Position numbers and translations under genes: made by a program. The notes beneath the pieces were generated by a model. The model made no database searches. It saw only the letters and a program-made list of their open reading frames with translations, and had not been told where the DNA came from. A DNA stretch of 64,000 nt, taken from assembly GCA_016190245.1 (NCBI GenBank), contig JACPQY010000060.1:62001-126000 (forward strand). Reading direction: 5' to 3'. Source of the DNA: Nitrospirota bacterium. Its GTDB lineage: Bacteria > JACPQY01. How positions within the stretch are numbered: the first letter of the stretch is position 1; every line of letters begins with the position of its first letter. Of this stretch, positions 51,806 to 54,463 are shown in pieces.

Positions 51806-54463
51806 ATGAAAGAAATCGGAGAAGCTTATTCGGACAAGACGATTTGGCACATTCCCCCTCTCGTGGAGAAGCGGCACGGCGATACCTTCACATTTCTCGA
51901 CCCGGAAGGCCCCAACTGGATCTCGACCGACGCGCGTGGTGCGAGCATTCTGCGTCTGGTCGATGGAAAGATCTCGTTCGCCGAACTGGTCCGGCGCTAC
52001 TCCGAGCATTCAGGCACGGCGATGGCTCTCGCCTGGACACATTGTTTCACCTTTCTGAAGGATGCCGCTCGGGCCGGGCTCGCCGGCCGTCAACCGTTTT
52101 CTAGCAGGCAAGCCTACGAGGGCCGAGCCGCCATCATCGAGCCGGCACTCCGGGAGATTTGGATTCATACGAACAATTCCTGCAATCTTGCGTGTGCCCA
52201 TTGCCTTGTGAGCTCCGGACCCAAGGAGGACAAGGGGCTTGCACTGGACCAGTGGAAAGGCATCTTGGCGCAAGCTTTCGATCTTGGCGCCAGGCAGGTC
52301 TATTTCACCGGTGGCGAGCCGTTCGTTCGGAAGGACATCTTCGACTTGATCGACACCGTCCTGGCCGATCCGGGGCGTAGGCTCGTGATCCTGACCAACG
52401 GGATGCTACTGAAGGGGAGGATTCTCGAACGGCTGAAGGACTATTCAAGACGGCCTCTCACCCTCCAGATCAGTCTGGACGGACCGGATGCGGGGACGAA
52501 CGATCCGATTCGAGGCAAGGGGAGTTTCGAGCCCATCGTCCACGGCATCCGGGCTGGGCTCGACGCAGGTTTCCAGCCGATCGTCACCACCGTTGTAAAC
52601 GAATCGAATCGGCGAAAGGTGGCGGGGGTGACCCGTCTGCTGGGCTCGCTGGGCGTGAAGAGTCACCACCTGCTTTGGCCTCATCTGCGTGGGCGCGCGG
52701 CGATGCTCAATGGAAACTTCACGCTGACGGCCGAGAAGTGCCTGGACGTGTTGCTGGAGGCTCGCGAGGCGGGGCGCGAGGCGGGTGTTGCAGTGGACAA
52801 CTTCGAGTCCTTCCGAGCCCGAATCAGCGGTCGGCGGTTCGTCAGGATGGACCTGACCGGGGCCGGTGTCGAAAGCCTTTGCGTGTATTCGGATGGCCGA
52901 GTGTTCCCGTCCGCCTCGACGGCCGGCTACGCGAACCTATCGTGTGGCAATGCGCTTGAACTGCCCCTGTCGTCCATCTGGGAGAGCGCGAGGGTCCTCG
53001 CCGAGGCGAGACAGGCATCTGTGAAGGACAAGGTGATATGTCGTTCCTGCGAGTGGCGCTACATCTGCGGCGGAGGCGAGATCGAGCACGCATATGCCTA
53101 TTCGCAGAACGGCAAGGCCCGTGCCGCCTACGTGGGGTTCATGGAACACGACCCCTTCTGTGGTCTCTACAAAGGAGCGCTGGAGCGGATTCTTGTGGAG
53201 GAGTCCAAACCAAGGGGCCCTCTCAACAGGACGAGCGGGTTCAACTCGCCCGTGGTGTTTCGTTCGATGGGGGACTCCATCCTCTGCGGGCGGGAATCCG
53301 AACTGACGCGAGGCCGAAACGGCGTGGCCGTGGGTCATTCGTCTTGCCACTTGTCTGTGGACATCGCCCATCTTCGGGAAGACGTGCGGAACTACTACGC
53401 CGAGGCCGCCAAGGAGCCTCAGGAGGCTCTTTGCTGCCCGGTGAAATACGATTCCTCGGAGCTGAGCCACATCCCGAAGGACGTTATCGACCGATTCTAC
53501 GGATGTGGCGGTCCCGTCGCCGCGGCACGGATCAAGGAGGGGGAGGTTGTCGTGGATTTCGGCAGCGGAGCGGGCATCGATTGTTTCATTGCCGCGCGGA
53601 AGGTCGGTTCCTCGGGCGGAGTGATCGGCGTGGACATGACCGACGAGATGCTCGCGGTCGCTGAGCGGTGCAAGGCCGAAGTGGCCGGGCGGCTCGGGTA
53701 CGACGTGGTCGAATTCCGAAAGGGCTTCCTCGAGGAAGTGCCCGTCCCCGACGCCACAGCCGACCTCGTCATGTCCAACTGCGTGGTGAATCTCTCGCCG
53801 GACAAGCGGAAAGTTTTCGCGGAGATGTGGCGCATTCTGAAGGACCATGGGCGCGTGGTGATCTCGGATATCGTCGCCGACAAGGCCGTTCCCTTGGACA
53901 TGCAGCGAGACGTGGAGCTTCGGGGCGCCTGCATCAGCGGTGCGCTGACGGAAGAGGAGTTCCTCGCCTATCTCGAGCGTGCGGGATTCTATGGGTTGCG
54001 ATTGATCGATAGGAAGCCTTGGAAGGAGGTCGAGGGTAGTCGCTTCTCCTCGGTCACGGTGGAAGGATACAAGTTCGAGAAGAAGGCGGGCTGCACCTAC
54101 ATCGGTCAGCGGGTGGTCTACTCCGGTCCGTTCAAGGCCGTGATCGACGAGGAAGGGCACCTCTTTCCGCGAAACGAGCCGGTCGAAGTCTGCACCGACA
54201 CGGCGGCCAAGCTCAGACATTCGCCGTATTCCGGAACATTTGTCGTGTTGGAACCAGATGGCTCAGAGGCCGAATCACCGTCCGGCGAGATCCTGTCCGA
54301 AAACCCTAACCCCGACCCTTCCGCCAAAGGCGGATTCCCTCTCCTCGAAGAGGACCTGCCCGTCCGCCGAGGCGGACAGGCGGGGAGGGATAGGGTGAGG
54401 AATTCTGAAGCCCTCGACTCGGGCTCTAGGATAGGCGCTAAGTGCGGTCCGGGTTGCTGCTGA
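51806..54463 (+). CDS. PqqD-like / radical SAM / SPASM / ArsM-like methyltransferase fusion protein
   Basis: WIHTNNSCNLACAHCLVSSGP (CxxxCxxC); SPASM-like CRSCEWRYICGGGEIEH...FCGLY; VVDFGSGAGIDCFIAARKVG...VVNLSPDKRKVFAEMWRILKDHGRVVISDI; ends GAKCGPGCC. Confidence 0.88.
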   Translation: MKEIGEAYSDKTIWHIPPLVEKRHGDTFTFLDPEGPNWISTDARGASILRLVDGKISFAELVRRYSEHSGTAMALAWTHCFTFLKDAARAGLAGRQPFSSRQAYEGRAAIIEPALREIWIHTNNSCNLACAHCLVSSGPKEDKGLALDQWKGILAQAFDLGARQVYFTGGEPFVRKDIFDLIDTVLADPGRRLVILTNGMLLKGRILERLKDYSRRPLTLQISLDGPDAGTNDPIRGKGSFEPIVHGIRAGLDAGFQPIVTTVVNESNRRKVAGVTRLLGSLGVKSHHLLWPHLRGRAAMLNGNFTLTAEKCLDVLLEAREAGREAGVAVDNFESFRARISGRRFVRMDLTGAGVESLCVYSDGRVFPSASTAGYANLSCGNALELPLSSIWESARVLAEARQASVKDKVICRSCEWRYICGGGEIEHAYAYSQNGKARAAYVGFMEHDPFCGLYKGALERILVEESKPRGPLNRTSGFNSPVVFRSMGDSILCGRESELTRGRNGVAVGHSSCHLSVDIAHLREDVRNYYAEAAKEPQEALCCPVKYDSSELSHIPKDVIDRFYGCGGPVAAARIKEGEVVVDFGSGAGIDCFIAARKVGSSGGVIGVDMTDEMLAVAERCKAEVAGRLGYDVVEFRKGFLEEVPVPDATADLVMSNCVVNLSPDKRKVFAEMWRILKDHGRVVISDIVADKAVPLDMQRDVELRGACISGALTEEEFLAYLERAGFYGLRLIDRKPWKEVEGSRFSSVTVEGYKFEKKAGCTYIGQRVVYSGPFKAVIDEEGHLFPRNEPVEVCTDTAAKLRHSPYSGTFVVLEPDGSEAESPSGEILSENPNPDPSAKGGFPLLEEDLPVRRGGQAGRDRVRNSEALDSGSRIGAKCGPGCC
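54302..54411 (+). repeat. Palindromic repeat (same family as 8706-8815) inside the radical SAM fusion CDS
   Basis: CCCTAACCCCGACCC...CCCTCTCCTCG...GGGATAGGGTGAGG with hairpins at 54320-54334 and 54363-54376. Confidence 0.75.

Follow-up and report, generated by a model that had tools for sequence, protein, structure and literature searches.

A fused PqqD-like/radical SAM/ArsM protein from a Nitrospirota bacterium as a putative single-chain organoarsenical synthase

A gene coding for an 885-residue protein, in which a PqqD-like N-terminal domain, a radical S-adenosylmethionine (SAM) domain, a SPASM-like region and an arsenite methyltransferase (ArsM) follow one another in a single frame, has been found in a 64,000-nucleotide stretch of DNA from a Nitrospirota bacterium (contig JACPQY010000060.1, positions 62,001 to 126,000), which is referred to as the window. 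It is likely that this fused protein works as a single-chain organoarsenical synthase covering the work that is split elsewhere between ArsM and the radical SAM enzyme ArsS, and the best reading of the data is a separately evolved one-protein replacement for both. The fused enzyme is probably a source of complex arsenic-carbon compounds in a large number of uncultured bacteria. The architecture is real and widespread, and it is apparently undescribed: neither the fusion nor a characterised family with the same architecture was found in the full-text literature searched, a coverage outside which most subscription journals lie, so that this absence is weak evidence.

Architecture and conservation of the fused family

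The initial annotation, made from the sequence alone, had described a polypeptide combining these four parts, and the combination has been borne out by profile searches, by structure models and by the related loci. When named genomes were scanned with three orthologues, each represented by its N-terminal half, 47 such loci were returned (designated L, with genomes designated G), belonging to 13 named phyla and to three records without a named phylum. Planctomycetota contributed 18 of the 47, mostly Scalindua and other anammox bacteria. A single frame runs from the radical SAM domain into ArsM in 44 of the 47 loci, and a chance or assembly fusion was rejected on this count; L067 is split into two frames, and L036 and L079 are cut by contig ends ahead of the radical SAM/ArsM junction. 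After omission of six of the 47 loci from the alignment (L036, L039, L047, L062 and L079, all cut by contig ends, and L067), cysteines C126, C130, C133, C514, C543, C544, C567, C659, C709, C884 and C885 were invariant in 43 of 43 complete members. Pairwise distances of the two halves correlated with a coefficient of 0.85, which none of 999 permutations reached, and a tree of 26 fused ArsM domains, 13 standalone ArsMs and one arsenosugar ArsM placed all 26 fused domains on one side of a branch with a support of 83, both of which fit one old fusion. The lone arsenosugar ArsM, with a branch of 7.6, could not be placed in this tree. The ArsM half was the best conserved part (mean identity 65%), followed by the radical SAM (50%) and PqqD (36%) parts. 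A plasmid collection gave 8 records, with matches limited to parts of the ArsM half.

The radical SAM domain was recognised by the Pfam model Radical_SAM (PF04055) at residues 123-263, with 80.5 bits over a cut-off of 29.5, and its CxxxCxxC motif is formed by the invariant C126, C130 and C133 (52181-52204). Model residues 17-470 were aligned with the peptide maturase CteB (5wgg) by VIA-align with a Z score of 31.6 and a root-mean-square deviation (rmsd) of 4.6 over 413 residues; the full-length model itself had a predicted local distance difference test score (pLDDT) of 84.5 and a predicted template modelling score of 0.81. The SPASM model (PF13186, cut-off 21.5) gave 20.4 bits in the whole protein and 23.8 bits when the region was scanned alone. 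The textbook SPASM motif comprises seven auxiliary-cluster cysteines. A SPASM-type cysteine cluster had been annotated initially, and it stands as a SPASM-like region but not as the complete motif, because the window protein has five cysteines and four of them (C412, C415, C421 and C452) are jointly absent in 12 of the 43 members (L061, L064, L065, L066, L071, L072, L074-L078 and L080), which retain the radical SAM and ArsM cysteines. Eleven of these 12 members form one clade with a support of 99, and the twelfth is a long-branched outlier. The auxiliary cluster therefore seems to be non-essential to the family; by their conservation, the radical SAM and arsenic cysteines look essential.

The methyltransferase half matched the Pfam model Methyltransf_31 at residues 576-727 (95 bits, cut-off 27). 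Its search against the PDB returned CmArsM (4kw7, 4.9e-39), and the likeness extends over the trailing GPFKAVIDEEGHLFPRNEPVEVCTDTAAKL region, as had been proposed in the initial annotation of a complete ArsM-like enzyme. C567, C659 and C709 align with C72, C174 and C224 of CmArsM, respectively. A complete ArsM fold with its C-terminal domain was also revealed by Foldseek (4fs8, 2.4e-22), and model residues 539-820 were aligned with CmArsM 6cx6 by VIA-align with a Z score of 27.9 and an rmsd of 7.2 over 278 residues. This half therefore shares with CmArsM (4kw7) and human AS3MT (8xt7) the fold, the C-terminal domain, the three CmArsM-matching cysteines and a Cys-Cys tail, but it differs from them in sitting behind a PqqD/radical SAM/SPASM-like module and in falling under the cut-offs of the arsenite methyltransferase profile NF008823 (237.2 bits, cut-off 263), of NF040538 (215 bits, cut-off 500) and of the arsenosugar ArsM profile NF038099, against which strict identity was rejected (161 bits versus 400). 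Ahead of the conserved CGPGCC tail, about 36 residues are inserted in frame by a repeat of about 70-107 bases that occurs at 24 places in the genome of the window at E<=0.001, the query counted.

The N-terminal domain of the window protein scored 17.1-17.4 bits with the PqqD model PF05402 (cut-off 23.4), and that of its nearest relative, L009, scored 25.5 bits; PqqD was matched at E<=0.1 in 21 of 30 family N-termini, which are the rows, out of 43, included in the N-terminal alignment. When predicted alone, this region formed a three-strand, three-helix winged domain (pLDDT 96.9), whose best Foldseek matches in the PDB were TbiB1 (5v1u, 5.1e-4), a protein with the recognition element (RRE) of ribosomally synthesized and post-translationally modified peptides (RiPPs), and the PqqD protein of M. 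extorquens (5sxy, 1.2e-3). The VIA-align comparison with the lasso peptide RRE 6jx3 gave a Z score of 10.5 and an rmsd of 2.9 over 84 residues, and some unrelated winged folds also reached Z scores of 8-10. According to the predicted model, the domain has the winged-helix RRE fold. Both ends of the protein fell in profile and structure comparisons where the initial annotation had placed them, the N-terminus as PqqD-like and the C-terminus as ArsM-like. A docking or scaffold part for the PqqD-like domain is a guess.

Partner genes shared with ArsS loci

Neighbouring genes were surveyed within 8 kb of the fused gene in 49 loci (the 47 loci, L009 and the window). Neighbours were counted by gap, hits sharing over 200 bases with the core gene were left out, and the standalone ArsM in L060 was excluded from the list of core genes; under the overlap rule L072 loses a TVP38 hit, whose long frame on the reverse strand runs across the fused gene. 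The commonest recurring neighbour on either strand was a PiT permease (22 loci), followed by DUF547 (15), TIGR04282 (15), an NF004991-type oxidoreductase (13), TVP38 (12) and TIGR04283 (9). The TVP38 proteins are under every NCBIfam cut-off and were identified by the Pfam model VTT_dom. At least one gene for a glycosyltransferase, TVP38, flavin adenine dinucleotide (FAD) oxidoreductase or DUF547 protein was present on the same strand in 32 of the 49 loci. TIGR04283 is named arsenosugar biosynthesis glycosyltransferase by NCBI, and a TIGR04282 gene is called an arsenosugar biosynthesis gene in an excerpt of PMC8801600.

This association was also found at the level of whole genomes. The 48 fusion genomes correspond to the 47 loci together with the genome of the window (G000) and its sister genome (G001), L072 sharing its genome with L064 and L058 being that of G030. 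TIGR04282 was over its cut-off in 43 of the 48 fusion genomes versus 6 of 32 comparison genomes (Fisher p 1e-10), and TIGR04283 in 36 of 48 versus 5 of 32 (Fisher p 2e-7), values that overstate independence because the comparison genomes were unmatched for phylum and size and the loci are so rich in Planctomycetota. One of the two genes lay at 3 kb or less from the fusion in 20 of the 48 genomes (17 with over-cut-off matches alone). ArsS itself (TIGR04167) was over its cut-off in 3 of the 48 fusion genomes and in 3 of the 32 comparison genomes. With NF038099 at 1e-35, the fusion genomes yielded, besides the fused proteins themselves, a single match, a true member in G104, and the 32 comparison genomes yielded no match; the cut-off of this profile was passed by G104:C4 alone among the 80 genomes.

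The same partner genes occur next to ArsS. Among seven ArsS loci, glycosyltransferases were present in five, an FAD oxidoreductase in four (that of G007 is also NF004991, with 772.5 bits), TVP38 in three and DUF547 in one. One ArsS reference frame, L127:9348-10250, gave no match, the frame being probably wrong, and the ArsS at this place was assigned from the TIGR04167 search and from the ArsS loci themselves. In G104, two ArsS loci are each accompanied by TIGR04282/TIGR04283-type genes, and another contig carries the fusion with TIGR04283, TIGR04282 and TVP38. Since these partners are common to fusion and ArsS loci, the fusion occupies the ArsS slot. Both systems thus associate a radical SAM protein with TIGR04282, TIGR04283, TVP38, the NF004991 oxidoreductase and DUF547, but the fused protein belongs to a different radical SAM lineage, carries the additional PqqD, SPASM-like and ArsM parts, and has PiT as a neighbour on its side. 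Strict ArsS identity was rejected (46 bits versus a cut-off of 300), and the simplest account is the same role with a different origin. The initial annotation had linked the protein to ArsM/ArsS chemistry and to a dedicated organoarsenic pathway, and had suggested a survey of the genomic context of its homologues; that survey shows recurring ArsS-type partners, and the neighbourhoods of the relatives strongly favour an arsenosugar pathway.

Matches to TIGR04282 and/or TIGR04283 were also observed in four comparison genomes (G006, G010, G013 and G032) that have neither the fusion nor an ArsS match at 1e-40, a hint of yet other alternative enzymes; the TIGR04282 match of G013 is below the cut-off. 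A fusion in reverse order, ArsM-like methyltransferase followed by radical SAM, was found on the minus strand of G032:C268 (L134, 3-1508), cut by the contig end. It has an in-frame TGA, possibly for selenocysteine, at the cysteine position corresponding to C709/C224, and lies about 1.8 kb from a TIGR04282 gene.

Proposed chemistry and alternative explanations

Arsenosugars and arsenolipids dominate the organic arsenic of seafood and marine life. According to excerpts of two papers, the known starting enzymes of arsenosugar synthesis are the separate pair ArsM and ArsS (PMC8552651, PMC12159101), with ArsS adenosylating arsenic in oxo-arsenosugar synthesis (PMC12159101) and the Synechocystis ArsS acting together with ArsM in the first steps (PMC8552651). 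In the fused protein, As(III) would be bound through the conserved cysteines of the C-terminal ArsM half and methylated with SAM as donor, dimethylarsenite being the probable product. A second SAM would then be cleaved by the radical SAM half, and the radical fragment, for which 5'-deoxyadenosyl is the most likely identity, would be attached to the methylated arsenic, so that dimethylarsenic would become adenosylated on the same chain. The product would be transferred onward without being released, and trimming and glycosylation by the TIGR04282 and TIGR04283 enzymes would then lead to an arsenosugar-like product. The FAD oxidoreductase may maintain arsenic or thiols in the reduced state, and arsenate may be imported by the PiT permease.

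A wider proposition, which appears evenly balanced, is that in at least 13 named phyla, the marine anammox Scalindua included, an independently assembled one-protein synthase represents a second origin of the committed steps of arsenosugar synthesis, with methylation followed on one chain by the making of a further arsenic-carbon bond through radical chemistry. In this view, one clade has given up the auxiliary iron-sulfur cluster, and a fold for peptide recognition serves a purpose other than peptide binding. If uncultured anammox, sediment and groundwater bacteria do use a fused replacement of unrelated lineage, more organisms would count as likely producers, and the presence of arsenosugar glycosyltransferases in genomes that lack ArsS would be accounted for. 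The fusion also offers a single, directly testable protein in which point mutations can separate methylation from the radical step that joins arsenic to carbon.

Several observations weigh against a single-chain organoarsenical synthase, in addition to the bias of the p-values. All the chemistry ascribed to the fused protein comes from sequence, structure models and gene context. The radical SAM half reached only 46.1 bits with TIGR04167 and the ArsM half 160.8 bits (about 161-164) with NF038099, and with a profile of the fused-family radical SAM domain ArsS (36-49 bits) was outscored by several further radical SAM proteins from G000 and G001, the highest at 78 bits. None of the seven ArsS loci contains PiT, and 17 of the 49 fusion loci have no glycosyltransferase, TVP38, FAD oxidoreductase or DUF547 gene on the same strand within 8 kb. 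At the locus of the window, the FAD oxidoreductase is the sole ArsS-type partner and no glycosyltransferase is linked; its genome, which is 84.77% complete, gave no match to TIGR04282 at 1e-10 or to TIGR04283 at 1e-20, and in the sister genome G001 both genes are on a different contig from the fusion.

The absence of both glycosyltransferases from the genome of the window would also fit a radical SAM half that adds another fragment, such as 3-amino-3-carboxypropyl (ACP), or uses another acceptor, to give a different organoarsenical. A precedent exists in arsinothricin biosynthesis, in which, according to an excerpt of PMC8552651, a radical SAM protein, ArsL, and an ArsM form a pair acting on arsenic, with radical SAM transfer of ACP to As(III) by ArsL. 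The pairing is the same as in the fused protein, but ArsL and ArsM are separate proteins and are accompanied by the transporter ArsQ, a gene not sought at the fusion loci. The failure of the radical SAM half at the curated ArsS cut-off also favours this explanation, as do its best NCBIfam models, which were Rv1681, AhbD and NirJ2 among the best 25 of 54 matches. No ArsL model is among those 25, however, and the family has its partner genes in common with ArsS loci; this explanation is the main rival, although an unlikely one.

A RiPP-type maturase, in which a precursor peptide is bound by the PqqD/RRE domain, modified by the radical SAM domain and methylated or loaded with arsenic by the ArsM half, is considered highly improbable. 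The RRE fold of the N-terminus and the alignment of the radical SAM half with RRE-bearing radical SAM/SPASM maturases, over residues 17-470 for CteB, 3-481 for TigE (8vpo) and 112-446 for SkfB (6efn), speak for it. Unlike these maturases, the fused family has ArsM appended and auxiliary-cluster cysteines that are reduced or, in the 12 members mentioned, lost; its neighbours are of the arsenosugar type; and a crude search of the 49 loci up to 4 kb from the fused gene, to which an unlinked precursor would be invisible, found no short open reading frame conserved beyond close Scalindua relatives. The modified-peptide pathway raised in the initial annotation is accordingly disfavoured, its RRE fold being nevertheless real. 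Just as improbable is a methyltransferase for arsenic detoxification with a radical SAM half directed at a target unrelated to arsenic, amid generic neighbours. The completeness and high conservation of the ArsM half and the frequency of the PiT permease agree with it, but the invariant radical SAM cysteines, the covariation of both halves and the strong association with TIGR04282 and TIGR04283 do not. A single-chain organoarsenical synthase is thus preferred to all three.

Features of the window and additional observations

The fused gene and its flanking genes are presented in Table 1. The genome of the window was assembled into 86 contigs with a total of 3.29 Mb.

Table 1. Position of the fused gene, its parts and its flanking genes in the window.
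Feature	Position	Strand	Remarks
zf-HC2 anti-sigma-type protein	50065..50586	-	divergent from PiT permease gene
PHO4/PiT-type inorganic anion permease	50647..51795	+	adjoins fused gene upstream; family recurs next to the fusion in 22 of 49 loci
Fused PqqD-like/radical SAM/SPASM-like/ArsM protein	51806..54463	+	885 residues; ATG start; without internal stop
N-terminal PqqD/RRE-fold domain	51827..52093	+	residues about 8-96
Radical SAM domain, barrel	52142..52825	+	residues about 113-340
SPASM-like region	52871..53170	+	residues about 356-455; five cysteines (C359, C412, C415, C421, C452)
Arsenite methyltransferase module	53318..54250	+	residues about 505-815; C543/C544, C567, C659, C709; ArsM C-terminal domain
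Dispersed genomic repeat copy, in frame in fused gene	54336..54442	+	residues about 844-879; not present in L009 or L010
C-terminal CGPGCC	54443..54460	+	final two cysteines invariant in 43 of 43
FAD-containing oxidoreductase NF004991	54530..56053	+	adjoins fused gene downstream; 819.7 bits, cut-off 620

Other genes recur around the fused gene in particular groups of loci. Extracytoplasmic function (ECF) sigma factor and zf-HC2 anti-sigma genes were located near it in 6 of the 49 loci (L041, L054, L057, L067, L068 and L070), and this recurrence suggests a dedicated regulation of the fused gene. A recurring neighbour of 472 residues (family c2, 17 of 49 loci) matched no Pfam family. In Scalindua-type loci (L037, L038, L041, L043, L045, L052, L055 and L056), a block composed of a cellulose-synthase-like GT2 glycosyltransferase, a DUF3179 protein and an unannotated protein of about 470 residues lies upstream of the fused gene. 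Elsewhere in the window, two direct repeats of 141 bases (21496-21636 and 49364-49504), 84% alike, were observed 27.9 kb apart.

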